Source: a virus. Taken from it: DNA of 44,598 bases. Location of the stretch: positions 1-44,598 of IMG/VR virus record IMGVR_UViG_3300025000_001092. The stretch is one strand, 5' to 3'. Below are positions 5,609 through 22,170 of the stretch, piece after piece. Under the pieces are notes generated by a model. That model had not been told where the DNA came from, made no database searches, and was given only the letters and a program-made list of their open reading frames with translations. A program made the position numbers and the translations under genes. The stretch's first letter is position 1; each line of letters starts with the position of its first letter.

Positions 5609-5703
5609 GTAGCATTTATATTTATATTATAATGCTACAAATTGAAGCTGTCAATATCATTTACTACGATTTGTAGCATTTATTTTATTGCTACGCTTTG
5701 TAG
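5609..5703. promoter_or_regulatory. Immunity operators (GTAGCAT / TTTGTAGCAT dyads)
   Basis: The divergent region between the cro-like and repressor genes holds repeated half-sites: GTAGCAT at 5609-5615, ATGCTACAAA at 5632-5641, TTTGTAGCAT at 5670-5679 and TTGCTACGCTTTGTAG at about 5688-5703. The pairs 5609/5632 and 5632/5670 are inverted. Sites overlap the core of both predicted promoters, as expected for a repressor/Cro switch. Confidence 0.8.
5626..5654 (-). promoter_or_regulatory. Leftward early promoter (consensus sigma-A type)
   Basis: Read on the minus strand, TTGACA (5654-5649) is followed by a 17-nt spacer and TATAAT (5631-5626), a perfect consensus. The operator half-site ATGCTACAAA fills the spacer, so binding there would block RNA polymerase. 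It drives the cro-like gene and the early operon down to SbcD. Confidence 0.88.
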
Positions 5704-5717
5704 AGTAAAATTATAGT
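5688..5717 (+). promoter_or_regulatory. Probable repressor promoter
   Basis: TTGCTA (5688-5693), an 18-nt spacer and TATAGT (5712-5717) precede the repressor. The -35 overlaps the TTGCTACGCTTTGTAG operator, consistent with autoregulation. It is weaker than the opposing promoter. Confidence 0.5.
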
Positions 5718-5746
5718 AATAAGCAACTAGGAGGTGAAAATGCGCA

Positions 5747-7160: not shown

Positions 7161-8684
7161 ATGGAATCGGTCGCTATCTATATCCGTGTTTCAACTCGTA
7201 AACAAATGGATAATTACTCCCCGGGGGAACAGAAGCGAGTCCTAACAGAATATGCCGAAAGCCGCGGGTGGAAAATATATGATATTTACTCAGACCTGGG
7301 TGAAAGTGGTTCGGACTCCGACCGGGATGATCTCGACCGGCTCATGGTCGACGCTGGCAGAAAACTATTCAGTATGGTCCTTCTTTTCGAACAAGACCGC
7401 CTTAGCCGTCTAGAGCAACTTGATTGGGCCTACTTAGCAAACTCTTTAGCTAAACAAAATATAAGACTCGTTACTCCAACGAGCGAAATCAATCTGGATA
7501 ACGAAGAGGACCGATTCCTAGCAGACCTATTCAATCTTTTAGCCAATAGAGAATTAAAGAAAATAAAAAAGCGCACATCCATGGGTAGGGGTGCAGCAAG
7601 TCAAGATGGTGTTTACTTTGGATCTGTTCCTTTTGGCGTGACACTGAATCGCGTAACTAAGCTATGGAGCGTTGTGCCAAAACAGGTAGAAGTAACTCAA
7701 TTAGCGTTCGAGTGGTATGCAATCGATTTTGGGTTCAATGCCATTGCTAAGAGGCTGAACGATAACGGGTATCGATCACAGAAGGGTGCTAAGTTCAACT
7801 CATCGACAGTAAGCAGGATATTAACTAACCCTATTTGCCTAGGAGAATTCGAACAGACGGTCGTTGGTAAGACTTCGCGTCATACAGTTAAATGGGAGCA
7901 TGGTAATGGGCCATACATTTCAAAACAATCCTATAATCGTGTGCAGTCTATTATTGCAGAACGTGGAGAATATCAATATTTTTTAAAGGCGAAATACCTC
8001 TTAGTGGGTATTATAGTTTGCGAAGAATGCGGTAGAAAGCTACAATCTAAGCCCACACAATCAATACTAGCTAAAGGAAATAAGGTTATATATCATTACT
8101 ACGCTCACAGACAAGCAACCAAGAAAGAGTGCAGTGCCCATCACAAAATGAGCATTATTCACGGCAAAATACTTTCAACGCTTCAGGAAATAGCAGGGAA
8201 CCCCAAGAGAATAGAGTTACTCATCAAGGAGAATTCAAGACCAGTTAATACGGATGATATCAAGGAAAAACTAGAACGATGCCGAGATGAACGCGCTAAA
8301 CTAATTGATAAAAAGGGAAAGTTATTAGACTTTTATTTAGATGGAGTATGGGAAAAGGATGAACTGGACCAAAAAAAGAGGGATATAGAAATACAGATAG
8401 CTGCTATTTCAAGTAGAGAGTCCGAACTTGACCAACGCTTAACATCTTCATTAAGGACCGATGTAGATATTAAAAAGGTATCCGAGGCATTATTGATGCT
8501 TAAAGGTTTTAATGAGAACAAGGAGCTTACGGATGACCAAAAAATTACGTTAATACGAGACTTGATATCTGAGGTCAGAGTGAGTAAGTTAGGAGCGATA
8601 GAACTTTTTTTAAAGGTAAATGTTGGTAGTAATGCTTGTCCAATCATAAGCAGTGATCTTCATCTATGCTTAACTCTGGACTGA
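7161..8684 (+). CDS. int: Large serine recombinase (phage integrase)
   Basis: 507 aa with an excellent RBS (CAGGAGGTGAAACC). The N-terminal resolvase domain has the catalytic serine at residue 11 (YIRVSTRKQ) and the DRLSRLEQ segment. It is followed by the recombinase domain (GSVPFGVTLN, NDNGYRSQKGAKF, RILTNPICLGEF), a zinc ribbon from about residue 287 (CEECGRKL, then paired Cys/His about 40 residues later) and a coiled coil at about 365-430. This is the architecture of phage integrases such as those of phiC31/A118, which join attP and attB directionally. It follows the repressor and ImmA genes, a standard lysogeny cassette. All key residues seen are intact. Confidence 0.95.
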   Translation: MESVAIYIRVSTRKQMDNYSPGEQKRVLTEYAESRGWKIYDIYSDLGESGSDSDRDDLDRLMVDAGRKLFSMVLLFEQDRLSRLEQLDWAYLANSLAKQNIRLVTPTSEINLDNEEDRFLADLFNLLANRELKKIKKRTSMGRGAASQDGVYFGSVPFGVTLNRVTKLWSVVPKQVEVTQLAFEWYAIDFGFNAIAKRLNDNGYRSQKGAKFNSSTVSRILTNPICLGEFEQTVVGKTSRHTVKWEHGNGPYISKQSYNRVQSIIAERGEYQYFLKAKYLLVGIIVCEECGRKLQSKPTQSILAKGNKVIYHYYAHRQATKKECSAHHKMSIIHGKILSTLQEIAGNPKRIELLIKENSRPVNTDDIKEKLERCRDERAKLIDKKGKLLDFYLDGVWEKDELDQKKRDIEIQIAAISSRESELDQRLTSSLRTDVDIKKVSEALLMLKGFNENKELTDDQKITLIRDLISEVRVSKLGAIELFLKVNVGSNACPIISSDLHLCLTLD

Positions 8685-8727: not shown

Positions 8728-8756
8728 CCATTTTTAACCAATTACGTGTTAAATGG
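8728..8756. other. Imperfect dyad next to integrase; possible attP region
   Basis: CCATTTTTAAC (8728-8738) faces GTTAAATGG (8748-8756) across CAATTACGT. It lies in the 155-bp gap between the integrase terminator and the next gene, a usual place for the attP of a large serine integrase. The dyad is short and interrupted, so this is only a candidate. Confidence 0.25.
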
Positions 8757-8839
8757 CGGACAGGCTACGTTATTTGTTCAACTCTATTCAAATATCATTT
8801 ATCAAACTGCACCACAAACACAACAAGGAGGTGACACAA

Positions 8840-11285: not shown

Positions 11286-11954
11286 GTGAACGAGCAGCTT
11301 CAACGCTTCCGAGGGACGAACTGTATAGCGTATGGGCAAATAAGGGATGACCAAATCGTCAAACTTATTTATGCCGGCGCGGCGTTCACTCGCCCTCAAA
11401 TTGAAAAAATCATATTTACAAATCGAAAGTCATCCAGAAGACTGTCTCAATATGCATTGGCCCGTCTTTACAAGCAGGAGAGAATCAAAAAATGGGTGCG
11501 ATCTGCTCACTTACCGACAATTTATTATTCGAGGAAACCGCGTCAATTGGACCACGTACTACTCATTAACGAAGTTTATTGCGCCCTACTCTCCCAGAAA
11601 AAGTCCTGGTACGTTATCGAATGGAAGTGGAATTATTCGATCCTGAACGGCATGGTTGTTGCCGATGCAATGGCGAATATATTTACCGAACCAGATCGCA
11701 AAGGTCGCCGAGTTGTGTTCGTCGAGGTCGAGCGTAACCCCAGCAAACGATTCGATAAACCCCAGCAATACCAGAAGGTGTACGATACTAATTGGATTAA
11801 GGAAGAGTGGTCGGTTATTAAAGGTAATACCGCAATATTCCCCACTATCTTAATCGTAACTGACGATGAACTTGTCATTAAAAGTGAACTTAACTTTATT
11901 GTTGCAAGTATTGATGAAGTTGGAAAGGACGTTTATTCTCTTTTAAGGAGGTAA
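11286..11954 (+). CDS. Replication-relaxation family protein
   Basis: 222 aa from GTG at 11286, 10 nt after AGGAG; the longer in-frame version would overlap the FtsK gene by over 100 nt. An N-terminal winged-helix-like part (GAAFTRPQIEKIIF, RRLSQYALARLYKQERIKKW) precedes a nuclease/relaxase-like beta region (DAMANIF, VVFVEVERNPS, KRFDKPQQYQKVY). This fits the replication-relaxation family found on Bacillota plasmids and prophages, thought to bind DNA at replication origins. The pair with an upstream FtsK ATPase is a recurrent one. Confidence 0.8.
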   Translation: MNEQLQRFRGTNCIAYGQIRDDQIVKLIYAGAAFTRPQIEKIIFTNRKSSRRLSQYALARLYKQERIKKWVRSAHLPTIYYSRKPRQLDHVLLINEVYCALLSQKKSWYVIEWKWNYSILNGMVVADAMANIFTEPDRKGRRVVFVEVERNPSKRFDKPQQYQKVYDTNWIKEEWSVIKGNTAIFPTILIVTDDELVIKSELNFIVASIDEVGKDVYSLLRR

Positions 11955-11958
11955 CGCA

Positions 11959-12273
11959 ATGTTCTATGATGTAATTGCCAACCGATCAGAATTCCTAAAG
12001 CTCTCTGATCCGGAAGTTCACGACACTCTCTCAAGCATGTTCCCTGATCGTAATCTATATTGTCACTCCCAAGGCTGGCGCAGAAGCGAAGAGTATATCC
12101 TTAAGGCCAAAGGCGGTCGCGGTGACGTTCTAGTCGGTTGGGGGAACATAACTAAGGGGGGCGAGGAAAGTGAGCGTACTGGATCGCTACGTTGCATCAC
12201 ACTCGAAAGTATATTGGGACACCAATCCGAAAGTGGAACGAGAAATCAGGGACCGTCAGGAAATCGCAAGTGA
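11959..12273 (+). CDS. Hypothetical protein
   Basis: 104 aa with TAAGGAGGTAACGCA before the ATG. The first 65 residues look protein-like (LSDPEVHDTLSSMFP, SEEYILKAKGGRGDVLVGWG). The last 35 residues overlap the next gene in another frame and are low-complexity in character, so the natural protein may once have ended earlier. Not recognised. Confidence 0.55.
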   Translation: MFYDVIANRSEFLKLSDPEVHDTLSSMFPDRNLYCHSQGWRRSEEYILKAKGGRGDVLVGWGNITKGGEESERTGSLRCITLESILGHQSESGTRNQGPSGNRK

Positions 12274-12532
12274 TTATCACGCCGGCAACTCTCTTGCCCA
12301 CATCCTAGATGATCATACGTCAGAACCAAAATACCAGAAGATCAGAGGAGAACAAGAGTGGGCTGCAATGGTATTCACCAAGTCACCTGGTAGACCTCTA
12401 AGGTGCGAGCGACCTTGCGTTGATGACTCCATCCTCTGGCAAGATCCCTGCACCAAAGAAGCCATTGCGATCACATATCGGCACACAGTTTTTGAGCAAC
12501 AGATGCAGAGATATTGGGGGTTAAAGCAATGA
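12170..12532 (+). CDS. Hypothetical protein
   Basis: 120 aa from GTG with GAGGAAAG upstream. It contains a charged helical N-terminus (NPKVEREIRDRQEIASDY) and two Cys pairs (LRCERPC, DPC) too irregular for a confident zinc site. It overlaps the preceding gene by 104 nt and the next by 4 nt. Not recognised. Confidence 0.55.
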   Translation: MSVLDRYVASHSKVYWDTNPKVEREIRDRQEIASDYHAGNSLAHILDDHTSEPKYQKIRGEQEWAAMVFTKSPGRPLRCERPCVDDSILWQDPCTKEAIAITYRHTVFEQQMQRYWGLKQ

Positions 12533-12633
12533 TTGAATCGGGAATCGCAATGATTATCATAGGATCTCTAGGACTGGGCTATAAGCTTTCTACTAAGATA
12601 AAACTGACGTTTAACAAAAAGGCTAAAGGGTGA
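12529..12633 (+). CDS. Mini membrane protein (34 aa)
   Basis: Overlapping the previous stop as ATGA, this 34-residue product has one hydrophobic segment (IAMIIIGSLGLGY) followed by a Lys-rich tail (KLSTKIKLTFNKKAKG), so it would be N-out with a cytoplasmic basic tail. GGGGG lies upstream. It ends 5 nt before the next start. Likely translated by coupling; role unknown. Confidence 0.5.
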   Translation: MIESGIAMIIIGSLGLGYKLSTKIKLTFNKKAKG

Positions 12634-12638
12634 TATTT

Positions 12639-12866
12639 ATGGGTAAGGGTATTAGAATAGCCGGTAGTCTACTGAACGCAGTAACGTTAAATCCAATCCT
12701 GAAGCAGATGAAGAAGGAAACAAAACTACTGGAAAAGCAACACAACTCGCGATTGAACCAAGCTGCGTTGGATGTTTTGGCGGAGAGGTCAGCGGAAACA
12801 ATGCCAAGGGTTTGGGAAGTTCGTCAACCGTTTGATTCGATTATACATCAGCATAAATTGTGGTAA
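12639..12866 (+). CDS. Small hypothetical protein
   Basis: 75 aa from the ATG at 12639 (AAAGGGTGA upstream). An amphipathic N-terminus (GIRIAGSLLNAVTLNPIL) precedes a charged helix (MKKETKLLEKQHNSRLNQ). No cysteines or catalytic motif. It belongs to the run of small genes after the replication-relaxation gene. Function unknown. Confidence 0.5.
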   Translation: MGKGIRIAGSLLNAVTLNPILKQMKKETKLLEKQHNSRLNQAALDVLAERSAETMPRVWEVRQPFDSIIHQHKLW

Positions 12867-12889
12867 AATAACTCAAGCGAGGTGATAAC

Positions 12890-16602: not shown

Positions 16603-16636
16603 CCCAATAAAAAATAACCCCGCGATGAGGGTTAAA
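16603..16636 (-). terminator. Terminator of the second regulator operon
   Basis: On the minus strand TAACCC (from 16634) pairs with GGGTTA (to 16613) and is followed by TTTTTTATT. It separates the 16668-17127 genes from the lysis genes. Confidence 0.75.
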
Positions 16637-16667
16637 AATAAACTCTTAATGCGAAAGACGCCAAAGA

Positions 16668-16895
16668 TTAAACTTCAGCGTCTTTTTGTTCACTCCATTT
16701 ATCAGGCGACAATCTAAAATCTACTAATTCTTTAGCTTCATTAATGGTTTGGACTAACTTAGTTCTTTTTGTTCCGAAATCAACACGATATCCGTTTTCT
16801 GTATCATATTGCAAAATTGAATATCCTTTATAAATTTCGATTACTTTTGGATTTATCTCAGAAAATTCTCTGAAACTTAATTTACATTCTTCCAT
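16668..16895 (-). CDS. Hypothetical protein cotranscribed with second XRE regulator
   Basis: 75 aa from the ATG at 16895 (GGAGGGG upstream). It has a beta-like centre (IYKGYSILQYDTENGYRVDFG) and a helical C-terminus, with one cysteine. The layout resembles small single-domain proteins of unknown function. It overlaps the XRE gene by 14 nt and precedes a terminator, so it is part of that regulator operon. It might be a partner or antagonist of the regulator (inference). Confidence 0.6.
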   Translation of the reverse strand: MEECKLSFREFSEINPKVIEIYKGYSILQYDTENGYRVDFGTKRTKLVQTINEAKELVDFRLSPDKWSEQKDAEV

Positions 16896-17127
16896 CTCTA
16901 ACCCCTCCATCCTCAGCGTCTTTTTTATGTTCCAGTAATTCACTAAGCTCTACGTCTAAGTAGTTGCAGAGCCTATCCAGTGTTTCCAAATCAACCCTTT
17001 TTACTCGGCCATGATACAACTCCGCAACAGTATTCCGAGCAAGCCCTGTTCCCTCTAGAACATCCGATATCTTCAAGCGTTTCCTGCCCATAACTTCACT
17101 CAATTTATTTATAATCAATGCTATCAC
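16882..17127 (-). CDS. Second XRE-family repressor
   Basis: 81 aa. HTH_3/HTH_26-like: MIALIINKLSEVMGRKRLKI, SDVLEGTGLARNTVAELYHG, LDRLCNYLDVELSELLEH. It is divergent from the 17278 gene across a promoter region with four AAGAAGTT-type sites, so it is probably an autoregulatory repressor of both directions. It differs from the 5747 repressor in sequence and its operators are unrelated, giving this genome two independent switches. Confidence 0.85.
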   Translation of the reverse strand: MIALIINKLSEVMGRKRLKISDVLEGTGLARNTVAELYHGRVKRVDLETLDRLCNYLDVELSELLEHKKDAEDGGVRDGRM

Positions 17128-17139
17128 TTCCTTGATTTA

Positions 17140-17250
17140 ATAATAGCAAAGTTAATAATAAACGTCAAGAAGTTAATTATTTTAGTTGACTTCTTGACTA
17201 ATTTCCTGTATATTATAGATAAGAAGTTGATCATAAACACCAAGAAGTTA
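17140..17250. promoter_or_regulatory. Divergent promoters with four AAGAAGTT operators
   Basis: Minus: TTGACG (17168-17163), 17 nt, TATTAT (17145-17140). Plus: TTGACT (17186-17191), 17 nt, TATATT (17209-17214). Sites: GTCAAGAAGTTAA at 17164-17176, inverted GTTGACTTCTTGAC at 17185-17198, AAGAAGTTGA at 17221-17230 and CAAGAAGTTA at 17241-17250. The first two overlap both -35 elements; the last two lie about two helical turns apart downstream of the plus start. Confidence 0.85.
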
Positions 17251-17277
17251 AGCATTAAAACAGAGGAGGAAACGAAG

Positions 17278-17628
17278 ATGACACGCAAAAGTTTCGAGGG
17301 GAATGATTTCGCGATACAGGTAATTTCGAAAGGTTCGTTCATAGACAACGCTGGAGGTGGACGCTCATTTCTAGTGGAAGCAACCATCATCCGACTGAAC
17401 CACGTTGCATTGAATGCCTGGATAATGTCGAATACGATGAACTGCCGCGAATGCTATGACACTAACGAAGAATGGGAAGCATATGAAGCTGAGATTGCGG
17501 AACGTCGCAAAGCCTGGACAGCGCAGATTGTCGAAGCGCTTGGAATCGATTCAACCAAAGGAAGCGTCAGTATCACGCAATCTCAATCAGAAGTATTTAC
17601 TGTTGTGCACATTAGGAAAATCTCTTAA
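17278..17628 (+). CDS. Hypothetical protein of the second switch
   Basis: 116 aa from the ATG at 17278 (AGAGGAGGAAACG upstream); the longer frame would begin inside the operators. It combines a beta-rich N-terminal half (SFLVEATIIRLNHVALNAWI) with an acidic helix (NEEWEAYEAEIAERRKAW). One CRECY pair is present. It is the first gene under the repressed plus promoter. Not recognised. Confidence 0.6.
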   Translation: MTRKSFEGNDFAIQVISKGSFIDNAGGGRSFLVEATIIRLNHVALNAWIMSNTMNCRECYDTNEEWEAYEAEIAERRKAWTAQIVEALGIDSTKGSVSITQSQSEVFTVVHIRKIS

Positions 17629-17639
17629 CAGATCCAAAG

Positions 17640-17660
17640 CCAGCCGGGGCCAATACCGGC
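17640..17660 (+). promoter_or_regulatory. GC-rich leader hairpin (copy 2)
   Basis: GCCGG (17643-17647), loop GGCCAATA and CCGGC (17656-17660), in the shared sequence GCCAGCCGGGGCCAATACC, sit between a stop codon and the RBS GAAGGAGGAG, exactly as in the copy before 13676. Confidence 0.6.
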
Positions 17661-17677
17661 GCGAAGGAGGAGATATT

Positions 17678-17959
17678 ATGTTTAAGCCAGTGAAATTGTT
17701 AGGTGAAGTTATGGCGCTCGCTTATCTCGTTAATACCAATACGGATTACTGCGTGATGATCCGCTATGCCGGACACGTTGACGAGTTAAAAATTCAAGTT
17801 TTTCCCAATAAGGAACACTGCGTAGAAGATGAACCAGTTTACGTTTCAGAATTTTACGTTGATGGTAAACACGGTTGCGACCCCGAGAAGGAGTTACTAG
17901 AACTTAAATCAGTCCTTGAGAGTTATCTTTATCCAAATATAGAAGGCACCCGTCCCTAG
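17678..17959 (+). CDS. Hypothetical protein behind leader hairpin
   Basis: 93 aa from the ATG at 17678 (AAGGAGGAG upstream); the frame is open further up but overlaps another gene. A hydrophobic beta-rich half (VKLLGEVMALAYLVNTNTDYCVMIRY) is followed by an acidic part (EHCVEDEPVYVSEFYVDG) and a helix. It has no membrane helix or known motif. Its product shows no visible similarity to that of 13676 despite the shared leader. Confidence 0.6.
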   Translation: MFKPVKLLGEVMALAYLVNTNTDYCVMIRYAGHVDELKIQVFPNKEHCVEDEPVYVSEFYVDGKHGCDPEKELLELKSVLESYLYPNIEGTRP

Positions 17960-17994
17960 CTTGCCGGCCTAGACGAGTGCTTATAGAAGACACC

Positions 17995-18045
17995 GGAGTG
18001 TCATGGGTATTATACCATGGCGCTCCAATTTAATTAAGAGGAGCG
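17995..18045 (+). promoter_or_regulatory. Possible RNA switch in the recombinase leader
   Basis: GGAGTGTCATGG (17995-18006) pairs with CCATGGCGCTCC (18015-18026) as a 12-bp RNA stem with two G-U pairs and an 8-nt loop. The 3' arm's CGCTCC (18021-18026) is also the exact complement of GGAGCG (18040-18045), the recombinase Shine-Dalgarno. The two pairings exclude each other. A short ORF from the ATG at 18003 overlaps the gene start. Confidence 0.5.
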
Positions 18046-18054
18046 AAAAGAGAA

Positions 18055-19062
18055 ATGTCTCAACAAATACTTAGCTCTACCGCCGAGATCCTACTCGAAC
18101 AGATAATGTGCACTGTTACCTTATCTTGCCCAAAAGAGGACAAACAGAAACTCCAACAAACTATAACCGGTATCCTGTCGCAATACGACATCAAGCCAGC
18201 GCTGATCCCGCATGGTCATCCGGACTTACAGCAGAAAATCAAGCTGTTCCTTGCTGGGAAACGTCTCGAAGGACTCGCTACTTCAACGCTCGAAAGTTAC
18301 ACTCTTGAACTCCGGATATTTACTGAACACATCCATAAGGCCACCAATGAGATCGCAACAGCTGATATTCGCATCTACTTAAGCGAGTTCGGACATCTCA
18401 AAACGTCCTCGATCTCTAAGAAATTGTCCGTCCTCAAGAGCATGTTTAGCTGGCTCGCGAATGAAAAAGTCATTACTTGTGATCCGACAAAGCAGATCAA
18501 GCCGCCGAAGAAGGAAAAGCGATCTCCAAAGGCACTTACAATAGAGGAACTTGAGATGATCCGGGAGGCCTGTGTCACACCCCGAGAACGAGCACTCATT
18601 GAGGTATACTATGCCACTGGTGCCCGATTGACTGAAGTACAACAGCTTAATCGCCAAGATATTGATTATCAAGCTATGTCCGTGCTGGTCATCGGGAAGG
18701 GAGATAAGGAGCGAACGGTTTACTTTAGCTTCAAAGCCATGTATCACTTGCAAAAATACCTAAAGAAGCGTTCCGACACCGTGGATGCACTGTTTGTAAC
18801 CGTGCGCAGGCCCTACCGACGGCTTTCGGCCAAGGGAATCCAACGCGAGGTTAAGATGATTCCTAAGCGATCTGAAGTGAAAAAGAATGTGCATCCGCAT
18901 GTATTTCGTCACACTTTTGCAACATTAATGTTGAATAACGGTGCCGACTTGGTCGCGGTCCAGGGATTACTCGGACACGTGGATCCGGCTACGACCCTGA
19001 TTTATTCGGTTCTGTCCGACGAAAAACGGAAGCAGTCTCACAAGCAATACCTGGTCCAATAA
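18055..19062 (+). CDS. Tyrosine recombinase (XerC/D-like integrase family)
   Basis: 335 aa. After an unusual 50-residue N-terminal extension come a SAM-like core-binding domain (about 60-145, LEGLATSTLESYTLELRIF) and the catalytic domain with R191 (GARLTEV), K215 (GKGDKER), H282 and R285 (HVFRHTF), H308 (GHVD) and Y317 (IYSVLS): a complete active set. It is a second recombinase besides the serine integrase. It could resolve multimers, move this cassette or invert DNA near the tail-fibre genes. It ends in a terminator. Confidence 0.9.
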   Translation: MSQQILSSTAEILLEQIMCTVTLSCPKEDKQKLQQTITGILSQYDIKPALIPHGHPDLQQKIKLFLAGKRLEGLATSTLESYTLELRIFTEHIHKATNEIATADIRIYLSEFGHLKTSSISKKLSVLKSMFSWLANEKVITCDPTKQIKPPKKEKRSPKALTIEELEMIREACVTPRERALIEVYYATGARLTEVQQLNRQDIDYQAMSVLVIGKGDKERTVYFSFKAMYHLQKYLKKRSDTVDALFVTVRRPYRRLSAKGIQREVKMIPKRSEVKKNVHPHVFRHTFATLMLNNGADLVAVQGLLGHVDPATTLIYSVLSDEKRKQSHKQYLVQ

Positions 19063-19088
19063 CGCCTTTCGGGGCGTTTCTTTTTTAT
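19061..19088 (+). terminator. Terminator overlapping recombinase stop
   Basis: AACGCC (19061-19066) and GGCGTT (19073-19078) are followed by a T-rich tract to 19090. Confidence 0.85.
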
Positions 19089-19166
19089 TTACAGGGTTTT
19101 CCTCATTTGTGTCGAAATTGGTAAGTTGTCCAGGCTAACCAAACTCAACATAAAGGAGGAGGTGAT

Positions 19167-19436
19167 ATTACGAGTTATCAAATCGATGGTGCCGTTGTCA
19201 AGGAGCAGGGTATTACTTTTGCTATCGTTGTGGTTAAGAGTCATGTAATCCAACATAGCAGTGAAGCTCAAGACGCTCAAAATGCTTATCGTCCTATTTT
19301 CCCCGGTATGCCAATCATCTTAATGGCCCAAGACTCACGAGGAACTCCGACTTACTACGGAAGGAAAGATATCGTTAATTTTCTTGCGAACGTCGATCCA
19401 AGGAGAATTCCATGGAAATCATACACTGTTAGTTGA
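19167..19436 (+). CDS. Hypothetical protein, probable ATT start
   Basis: 89 aa if it starts at ATT (19167), 4-7 nt after AAAGGAGGAGGTG; the first in-frame ATG/GTG (19230) has no RBS and would remove well-formed sequence (YQIDGAVVKEQGITFAIVVV). The GTG inside the RBS is in another frame and soon stops. The C-terminal half has FPGMPIILMAQD and a DIVNFLANVDPRRIPWKSY stretch. It resembles a small conserved Bacillota protein of unknown function. It converges with the minus-strand zinc-knuckle gene; the two 3' ends overlap by 8 nt. Confidence 0.6.
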   Translation: MTSYQIDGAVVKEQGITFAIVVVKSHVIQHSSEAQDAQNAYRPIFPGMPIILMAQDSRGTPTYYGRKDIVNFLANVDPRRIPWKSYTVS

Positions 19437-19645: not shown

Positions 19646-19680
19646 GCAAAGTACCTGGCCGTAATGACCAGGTACTTTGC
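19646..19680. other. Perfect 13-9-13 inverted repeat (terminator or recombinase site)
   Basis: GCAAAGTACCTGG (19646-19658), a 9-nt spacer and CCAGGTACTTTGC (19668-19680) form a perfect dyad after the last tail gene. There is no T tract after the stem on either strand, so it is an atypical terminator. Its arm and spacer lengths also match a tyrosine-recombinase core site of the lox type. Confidence 0.55.
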
Positions 19681-19704
19681 TGCGCATAATGCGTCAACTG
19701 TGAA

Positions 19705-19863
19705 CTAAGCTGTTGCTTGTCGAGTATCCATTAAGCCTTTTAGCTCGGTGTATTGCTCGATTGTAATACGACCACCTAAGAGATAGACATCTAGCTTATT
19801 TAACATCGAGTCATAATCATAGTTTCCACCTGTAATCACTTTTTTGCACAATGTATAAATCAT
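19705..19863 (-). CDS. XkdX-like small phage protein
   Basis: 52 aa from the ATG at 19863 (GGAGAGTG upstream): MIYTLCKKVITGGNYDYDSM..., with a VYLLGGRITIEQYTELKGLM helix. The size, GRITxEQYxEL motif and position after tail-fibre genes match XkdX-family proteins of PBSX-like phages, whose role is not established. Confidence 0.7.
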   Translation of the reverse strand: MIYTLCKKVITGGNYDYDSMLNKLDVYLLGGRITIEQYTELKGLMDTRQATA

Positions 19864-19887
19864 TAAAATCACTCTCCGATTTTTATT

Positions 19888-20130
19888 TTACTGACTCGTT
19901 AATTCTGACATAATAACGAGATATTCAGTGTTTAGTAAAGTCTGTGTCTGCATTTCTTCAAGCGTTGGTTGCGGTTCAGCCAGAACAGGTTCAGGTGTGA
20001 TAAAACTTCCGTCAGGCTGCATTATTTGACCAAACTCTCCAACTTGGGATTCAATCTCCCCATTAACAATAGATGGACCTTCTCTAGTCGATATAACTTT
20101 ATTCTCAATATCTAAAGTAATAAATCTCAT
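19888..20130 (-). CDS. XkdW-like / fibre-associated small protein
   Basis: 80 aa with GGGAGGTG before the ATG. It starts MRFITLDIENKVISTREG, is beta-rich, and has a Pro/Glu linker before a helical end (EEMQTQTLLNTEYLVIMSEL). Small proteins of this type sit between the fibre and XkdX in many Bacillota phages. No direct functional evidence. Confidence 0.55.
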   Translation of the reverse strand: MRFITLDIENKVISTREGPSIVNGEIESQVGEFGQIMQPDGSFITPEPVLAEPQPTLEEMQTQTLLNTEYLVIMSELTSQ

Positions 20131-20142
20131 AGTTTCACCTCC

Positions 20143-22158
20143 CTAGTTAAATTCGATCAATTGCCATTCATAAACTGGTGGATAAGTTGGATCTCCGCCT
20201 ACGATATTAATAGTTGTTGCATCAGCGATTGAATAGTTGTAACTTGCGAGGTAAGCATTGACTCCCGCCGGATCAGTGGTTCTTTTAGTCACAATTAATT
20301 CAGATTTCAATGGATTAACAGCAGAGATCGTAAAATTTTGACCACCATAATCCGTTGTTGCCACGCTAACGGCACCACGTTGTACGCTCTTTACGTTGTT
20401 GTACTCTATTACAACCCACTGGACCCTTGCATTCGATGCTGAACCTGCGTTTAATCTAACCTGTGTTGCGTTTGCTAATTGCCCCGTGACTAGGCTAGTA
20501 TTAGCAGCCGAGCTAGTGGCTAGGGTATTTATTCGCACTACCGATTTACTTGGGTCTACCGCCGATATGTTAATGAACGTTGTTGCGGCAGCACCCATTG
20601 TGGTGAAACCAGATTGGATGCTTTTTATGTTGCTTGCTGTTCCAGTAATGTATCCTCCGGCTACGGAAGTATTTCCTACTTTAACCCCAGCTACGATGTT
20701 CGATGCGTACAGATTATCGACTATCGTATTTCGATAAGATGAAAAGTATCTACCTTCTGGGATAGATATATTCAGAACTCCGTCCCAAGCTGGGCCTATT
20801 ACACTACTTTGCCAAACTCCACCACCTGCCTGTTCGGGCATCGTCCCTGTCAATTTAACCCCGTTAACATAGGCATAAAGCCCTGCCAAAATCTGACTAG
20901 CTACTGCATTTGCGTCCGAGGTATAAGTACCCGCCACCCCCCCAACTGTTGAGTTTTTAGCTATCACAGCCGCACTAAAATTAGTTAACGAAGCTGTTAT
21001 TGTTCCTCCTGGTCCGTATCCAATAGGCACCGTTGCTGTTCCACCTTGAGTGGTAATTGTAGTAGTGGGAGACGCATTACTCGGCATAGTACCCGGTATA
21101 ACACCAGCATTAGTTCCCAGCGTATAGCCCGTTAAAGTTTGGGCGGCTCCTGCTGTTCCATAATCACCTCCCTCACCCAGTAACTGAAAATTTCCTGTAC
21201 TGGCGTTATACCTAACTCCAACGATCCCGTTTAGTGGCATCTTACCCGCGATCAATGCGCTACCCTTACCATCAACAATCGCTTTAACACCCGTACCATT
21301 CCAATTTAGCGTGGACGCTCCCGTATTAGCTGCATGTACATCTAAATAGGCACTCACTCCGTCGACTAAAGCTGATAACGCAGGTGTACTGGCAAACACA
21401 TAAGCATTAGCCACGCCAGTTGTCGGACCAAATGCTGGTTGTCGCACATAATCTGCCTGATGTTCAGTAAGGGTTGTCTGTACTACGCCAGCCGCTGCCA
21501 CTCCAATTGCGGCTGCAGCATCAGCTTTGGCCTGTGCTCCGGCAGGCGTTTCTGCGCCTACGTCAGATGGAGTTAAAACAACCGCACCTGTTTTGGAGTT
21601 TACGCTTGATACTGGCACCGCGACATTAAGATTAGTAAGCCCCGATCCATCACCCACGAACTTAGATCCGGTGGTGTTCGTCTGGTTTAATTCTACCGTC
21701 AACCCGGCATCAGCAGTGTTATCGGTCCAGCTCGTAGTCGTATTATCGTTGATTTGAGCCAACCTGTAGAACGCGCTTCCTCCGGCCTTAGTACGCCCAA
21801 GAATACGGGCTACCGTGCCTGTGGGACCCGTTGGAATAGCTGAAACAGCGCCTTGTTGACCGTTAGGGTTGATGGTGTTTGACTCTGTTCCGTAACCCGT
21901 GTTTCCCTGCACAAGTAACGTTCCCGTAACTGGTTCGCCGTGCCAATAACCCGTAACAAATGCGACTACATACTTATAGGCGCCCGTAAGATTACCTAAG
22001 TTGGTATTAACTGCTGCTGTTGGAGCCGTTGGCGCAGTCAAGGGAGAAAGTAACTTCAACTGTCCGATATCCGCATTACCCATCAGACCCTCAACGAGTT
22101 GATTAACATCGCTTGCGTACTGACTGTCCACATTGTCCTGAATAGTATAAAGTGGCAA
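20143..22158 (-). CDS. Tail fibre / receptor-binding protein
   Basis: 671 aa from the TTG at 22158, 8 nt after AGGAGG (a GTG at 22167 would overlap the RBS). The N-terminus (MPLYTIQDNVDSQYASDVNQ) should attach to the baseplate. Low-complexity Gly/Thr/Ala-rich beta stretches, the fibre motif FVGDGSGLTNLN and repeated GVxLxGTMP segments follow. The last 160 residues hold two copies of a roughly 80-residue unit (xIKSIQSG...FxISAVxPxKS...QWVVIEYN and VKSVQRG...FTISAVNPLKS...WQLIEFN), probably the host-binding domains. It is the distal gene of the tail operon. Confidence 0.82.
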   Translation of the reverse strand: MPLYTIQDNVDSQYASDVNQLVEGLMGNADIGQLKLLSPLTAPTAPTAAVNTNLGNLTGAYKYVVAFVTGYWHGEPVTGTLLVQGNTGYGTESNTINPNGQQGAVSAIPTGPTGTVARILGRTKAGGSAFYRLAQINDNTTTSWTDNTADAGLTVELNQTNTTGSKFVGDGSGLTNLNVAVPVSSVNSKTGAVVLTPSDVGAETPAGAQAKADAAAAIGVAAAGVVQTTLTEHQADYVRQPAFGPTTGVANAYVFASTPALSALVDGVSAYLDVHAANTGASTLNWNGTGVKAIVDGKGSALIAGKMPLNGIVGVRYNASTGNFQLLGEGGDYGTAGAAQTLTGYTLGTNAGVIPGTMPSNASPTTTITTQGGTATVPIGYGPGGTITASLTNFSAAVIAKNSTVGGVAGTYTSDANAVASQILAGLYAYVNGVKLTGTMPEQAGGGVWQSSVIGPAWDGVLNISIPEGRYFSSYRNTIVDNLYASNIVAGVKVGNTSVAGGYITGTASNIKSIQSGFTTMGAAATTFINISAVDPSKSVVRINTLATSSAANTSLVTGQLANATQVRLNAGSASNARVQWVVIEYNNVKSVQRGAVSVATTDYGGQNFTISAVNPLKSELIVTKRTTDPAGVNAYLASYNYSIADATTINIVGGDPTYPPVYEWQLIEFN

Positions 22159-22170
22159 AATACACACCTC

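Follow-up and report, generated by a model that had tools for sequence, protein, structure and literature searches.

A repressor-linked Xer-like recombinase beside dif-like sites that frame a phage tail-fibre cassette: a probable system for fibre-tip exchange

The DNA analysed here, called the window in the following, is a stretch of 44,598 nt from a virus (IMG/VR record IMGVR_UViG_3300025000_001092). Its genes between the lysis and tail modules include an Xer-like tyrosine recombinase (TR) and a small XRE repressor, and our sequence comparison indicates that they probably supply the enzyme and its control for a system of tail-fibre cassette exchange, in which XRE would gate TR. The window record is one assembly and all the evidence is comparative. 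Comparison between phages establishes that the dif-like sites exist, how they are oriented and that they go together with TR, as well as the reassortment of fibre parts at the site within the fibre gene.

A preliminary description had placed an XRE gene, a partner gene, divergent promoters, two small ORFs and a complete TR between positions 16603 and 19088, and all of them are present where they were described. The XRE gene (16882-17127, minus strand) encodes an 81-aa protein, the small putative repressor of the unit, which matches HTH_26 (PF13443, E 9e-20). The partner ORF (16668-16898, minus strand) has no Pfam match. In the window and in L020 it is found to the left of XRE; in L021 (1142-1366) and L038 (11506) it lies downstream of TR on the opposite strand. 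The terminators that were said to bound the unit are also present as terminator-like hairpins, at its left end (16634-16615, minus strand) and 3' of TR (19061-19078, plus strand).

The divergent promoters and operator repeats occupy positions 17128-17277. One promoter, TTGACT-17-TATATT, is on the plus strand (17186-17214) and the other, TTGACG-17-TATTAT, points in the opposite direction (17168-17140, minus strand); across the region overall, promoter-like matches showed no excess over shuffled sequence. Four AAGAAGTT operator sites had been proposed here. Three are exact copies (17167, 17221 and 17242), and the fourth turned out to be an inverted near-copy with one mismatch at about 17187-17194. 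The same region contains a 54-nt direct repeat at 70%. The whole window holds 8 copies of AAGAAGTT against 2.1 expected, and none was found in the main immunity promoter region near 5616-5746, in agreement with the proposed separation of these operators from the main immunity. From its own divergent operators, XRE would probably repress the TR operon.

The search for relatives of TR yielded 44 viral loci and 61 genome loci. In phages and prophages across Bacillota, TR is positioned between the tail-fibre genes and the lysis genes. It is often oriented divergently from a small XRE gene whose product is homologous to that of the window, and the XRE-TR pairing is kept in many phages; in other phages a ribbon-helix-helix protein stands in place of XRE. 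Among the relatives in group A, the phage group of the window, the XRE-operator block (16911-17283, 71-89% conserved in relatives) and the TR block (17939-19165) are each conserved independently around variable cargo, which makes the unit more than a chance arrangement.

The variable slot is occupied by G1 (17278-17628, plus strand), which has no Pfam match and belongs to no known family. The stretch 17496-17669, which begins in G1, is 99% identical to L003, while the TR block is 78% identical. We did not rely on a weak PHROG match of G1 to a tail-fibre chaperone (E 0.001). The second cargo ORF, G2 (17678-17959, plus strand), is also without a Pfam match, and its 3' end is inside the conserved TR leader (17942-18050, plus strand). 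This leader consists of two hairpins and an RBS, has a folding z of -3.9 and is a candidate RNA element that may add control over TR production. Its hairpins are kept, yet compensatory changes were not found among 18 sequences, and since there was no Rfam match either, we rejected a known riboswitch. The leader was also rejected as a recombination site, because its arm spacing varies and it also precedes a divergent TR.

The leader of the window type is 79-85% identical before TR of only about 34% protein identity (L118, L121, L122, L116 and L117 compared). Both hairpins, followed by a T-run, persist in L116 and L117 although TR is absent there, and L116 has a reverse transcriptase (11865-12884, YxDD motif by eye) near the expected place of TR, with the same cargo and leader; it is perhaps part of a diversity-generating retroelement. 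Bacilli and Clostridia TR genes without XRE have a different structured leader about 30-230 bp upstream of TR (L064, L065, L108, L056-L059, L061, L075, L094, L097, L027, L072, L036 and L037). It resembles a three-way junction, in which a loop can pair with the RBS region and, by eye, loop and target co-vary. No Rfam match was found for those leaders of this kind that were searched. Several promoters of these XRE-less TR genes contain LexA-box-like sequences.

The TR gene (18055-19062, plus strand) is complete and shows a Pfam Phage_integrase match (7e-35) and SAM-like N-domains. The protein is XerD-like in sequence with the full catalytic R-K-H-R-H-Y set, and no variation occurs among 23 relatives at R191, R285, H308 and Y317 or at K218 and H282. 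Its best solved relative is XerD (2e-36), with a score far above that of IntI4. Membership in the Xer family would suit a phage integrase or a resolvase of phage-genome dimers, but such a role is hardly credible. The window encodes a large serine integrase beside the main repressor (7161-8684), and in most of the examined prophages with TR there is a canonical integrase as well. On one Shouchella chromosome TR is present twice, and about 40 kb separate each copy from another integrase. In the Terrisporobacter phage TPELB_ph1, TR (36% identity) is flanked by the last tail gene and the holin, and a separate integrase follows the endolysin. We therefore rejected TR as the phage integrase; moreover, two sites with unlike centres around a fibre tip, as described below, would not be expected of either an integrase or a resolvase. 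In L015 (10848-14304) a RIT-like element interrupts TR; its inverted ends measure 29 bp, and it carries three genes for tyrosine recombinases.

By comparing the regions beyond TR, we found a candidate TR site motif, present in related phages in one to three copies and always in the same orientation. In its matrix form the site has 28 bp, with 11-bp arms around a 6-bp centre (11-6-11), which is the layout of dif sites. The arms in chromosomal relatives are nearly perfect inverted repeats, for example ACTGCGCAGTA TAAGTC TACTACGTATT. In the window, the TR-side site (GCTGCGCATAA TGCGTC AACTGTGAACT; 19679-19706, plus strand) lies beyond TR and is separated from it by the S1 ORF (19170-19436, plus strand; phrog_23950, 1.4e-30). 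The second site (GTCGCACATAA TCTGCC TGATGTTCAGT; 21441-21468, plus strand) is inside the tail-fibre gene, where its minus strand codes for TEHQADYVR.

Both sites were scored with leave-one-out matrices built from other phages with the window excluded; the matrices were constructed after the loci had been inspected. The TR-side site scored 38.3, the top value in 44.6 kb, and the maximum of 100 random windows was 20.3. The fibre-internal site was likewise the top match in the window (31.7, random maximum 18.2); with the TR-side matrix it comes third there. The two sites are in direct orientation in the window and in most group A phages, and Geobacillus-type phages have both with the same geometry. 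No dif-like site was found on the XRE side of the unit in the window. We took a 15-bp inverted pair at 19724/22609 as chance. TPELB_ph1 (L134) has a near-palindromic 11-6-11 element, AATGCACAATT TGAATC TATTGTGCACC, at 8742-8769 between the last tail gene and TR; its matrix score is weak, though it is the best plus-strand match.

Across 14 phages the centre of the fibre site is 91% identical and the flanks are 33-49% identical. Because the site encodes a peptide that recurs, [TAG][EAI]H[QLK]A[DE], some of this conservation could be at the protein level. The centres are specific to their class: the agreement is 0.87 between fibre sites and 0.70 among the TR-side sites of different phages, and falls to 0.58 between the TR-side and fibre sites of the same phage. 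In the window the two centres differ at three of six positions, and they were never identical in any phage checked. Fibre relatives in records without TR are mostly without the fibre site; L136-138 and L142, also TR-less, retain both sites among fibre, chaperone and holin genes. Of 41 Bacilli and Clostridia loci scored with the TR-side-class matrix, 19 have a site above 99% of background upstream of TR, although about five of these 19 were in the matrix training, and in many Bacilli TR loci a confident TR-side site was not found.

The tail-fibre gene (20143-22167, minus strand) is divided by its site into a constant N-part (21469-22167, minus strand) and an exchangeable C-part (20143-21451, minus strand). 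Two small minus-strand ORFs, d2 (19705-19872) and d3 (19888-20130), end the fibre cassette. Homology between the window and its relatives stops within the fibre gene at about 21444-21452, and for both L003 and L020 it begins at 21452, the first centre base of the fibre site. The window shares 93% identity with L003 in the N-part, and the C-parts of the two are unrelated. The same holds for L015 and L020, with N-parts 89% identical, and the reverse is seen in L005 and L049, where a C-part 68% identical is joined to unrelated N-parts. In most phages the fibre ORF runs in frame through the site into diverse C-parts. Two prophages of one Shouchella chromosome are 95-98% identical around the locus and differ from a site inside the fibre gene up to a point about 230 bp ahead of TR. 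The high-identity block of L006 and L008 starts within a cassette, so not every breakpoint is at a site.

These positions bear on the claim that the unit is closed. The preliminary description suggested that it could be a resident mobile or regulatory island that decides when the recombinase is made; in a self-contained island, XRE would decide when the recombinase moves the island itself. In favour of this, the unit has terminators at both ends, its own promoter and an XRE-TR pair that is conserved while the flanks vary, and TR genes on chromosomes look like self-mobile cassettes. We nevertheless find this reading very unlikely, because the probable TR sites lie outside the unit (19679-19706 and 21441-21468) and frame the fibre cassette, TR and the integrase are separate enzymes, and the place beside the fibre genes, between these and the lysis genes, is fixed in very diverse phages. 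An island would also call for a site on the XRE side. What does fit the sequence is the proposed switch, a second repressor with its own operators over the recombinase, and the functional unit has to be extended beyond the proposed end to at least 21468. The island was to be doubted if related phages always carried these genes among core genes. This is partly the case, as TR adjoins core genes of the tail, apparently owing to a function connected with the fibre.

In the mechanism we favour, TR would act on the 28-bp dif-like sites which frame the C-terminal fibre cassette and would move the segment between the direct sites, that is, the fibre C-terminus with the accompanying small genes. In a cell that also contains another phage or prophage, the tip could thus give way to the tip of that partner. 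Recombination by tyrosine recombinases generally depends on matching centres, as established for Cre, Flp and Xer. Since the two centres of one phage differ, exchange between phages at both sites is likelier than excision, and the mismatch at three of six positions should make excision within a phage poor, as such a model requires. Each centre resembles its own class in other phages and not its partner, so a double exchange, site by like site, is likely the favoured reaction; it would swap the tip and never leave the phage without a fibre. Extra TR-side sites in some phages would bound additional gene cassettes. XRE, and perhaps also the structured leader, would limit the timing of TR production. 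We infer the cutting of the sites by TR, the double crossover, the repression of the TR operon by XRE and the resulting change of host range from these comparisons.

Variation of phage tail fibres by site-specific recombination is already known, and the direct, class-specific dif-like sites would be the new variation here. The closest precedent in function and gene order is the Rin shufflon of Bifidobacterium prophages, which uses 11-bp rix sites to invert among several spare tips (PMC6109161). Rin is also a phage Xer-like tyrosine recombinase that is not an integrase, lies beside variable receptor-binding C-parts and a constant N-part and uses short crossover sites (PMC6109161). TR differs in that its sites are direct, 11-6-11 and dif-like, its cassettes carry a single tip, its centres differ and it has its own regulator or leader. 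The shared order of recombinase, variable tips and constant part (PMC6109161), together with the partly palindromic sites, would fit an invertase that flips fibre segments, as Rin, Gin and Cin do. As in the Gin, Cin, Min and Rin systems, the recombinase is beside the junction of constant and variable fibre parts. However, the sites are direct and not inverted, no suitable inverted repeats besides the terminators and an inserted element were found around TR, and there was no spare fibre tip on the opposite strand in the cassettes checked. An invertase is therefore a very remote prospect, slightly more so than the island.

A stronger competitor to tip exchange is that TR moves integron-like accessory cassettes, that the match in the fibre gene is only a peptide motif and that tips are swapped by ordinary homologous recombination. 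Integrons likewise have a tyrosine recombinase beside direct sites bounding gene cassettes, and a direct cassette array beside the recombinase is found in phages with several sites, such as L038; the window has one cassette. In several phages two or three TR-side sites bound small unrelated ORFs, the fibre site is within a coding sequence, and chromosomal TR cassettes carry cargo, such as the MazE/VapC-like pair described below. On the other hand, the fibre site scores far above the random maximum (31.7 vs 18.2) and is third by the TR-side matrix, it is kept while the flanks on both sides vary, it is mostly missing from TR-less fibre relatives, and the window and L003 diverge at its first centre base. 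We consider this reading unlikely, though clearly less so than the other alternatives. The TR system also differs from integrons in its 28-bp dif-like sites instead of attC hairpins, in the best match to XerD instead of IntI and in a cassette that continues the reading frame of a structural gene; an IntI-type integrase with attC hairpins was not found. No spare fibre tips were found in the extra cassettes checked, which counts against tip exchange.

The dif/pdif modules of Acinetobacter plasmids are gene modules bounded by XerC/D-like sites and are attributed to the host XerCD (PMC7399989). The modules described here are bounded in a similar way, but they have a dedicated recombinase next to their sites, one of which falls within a coding gene. 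Diversity-generating retroelements also alter a host-binding tail protein, but they mutagenise by reverse transcription. In the open-access literature searched, no publication describing dif-like sites within fibre genes was found.

Modular exchange of fibre tips is usually ascribed to chance homologous or illegitimate recombination. If a dedicated enzyme and defined sites in the fibre gene are indeed involved, host-range exchange between temperate phages becomes directly testable, and there would be an explanation for why Bacillota phages have, puzzlingly, a second tyrosine recombinase where tail and lysis genes meet. More tentatively, and with slightly less than even confidence, we suggest a natural form of recombinase-mediated cassette exchange across Bacillota, in which two mutually incompatible classes of dif-like site around the receptor-binding tip and a dedicated, repressed Xer-like recombinase would maintain a shared pool of host-range modules, with TR-less phages joining in trans.

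Our reading would also connect this recombinase to the wider dif-like gene cassettes of Bacilli chromosomes. About 10 non-phage chromosomal TR genes, many of them broken, have a site 2-11 bp after the stop codon. A matrix made from phages alone first brought such site-bearing loci to light, and they are the best evidence that the TR family uses this dif-like site. Several chromosomal TR loci have more sites in the same orientation with cargo upstream, and the cargo of the L102 cassette is, by eye, a MazE/VapC-like pair. With their varied cargo and many broken TR genes, the Bacilli chromosomal cassettes of TR and dif-like site (L071, L077, L078, L079, L083, L086, L091, L096, L099, L100, L102 and L107) look like a mobile cassette family of their own.
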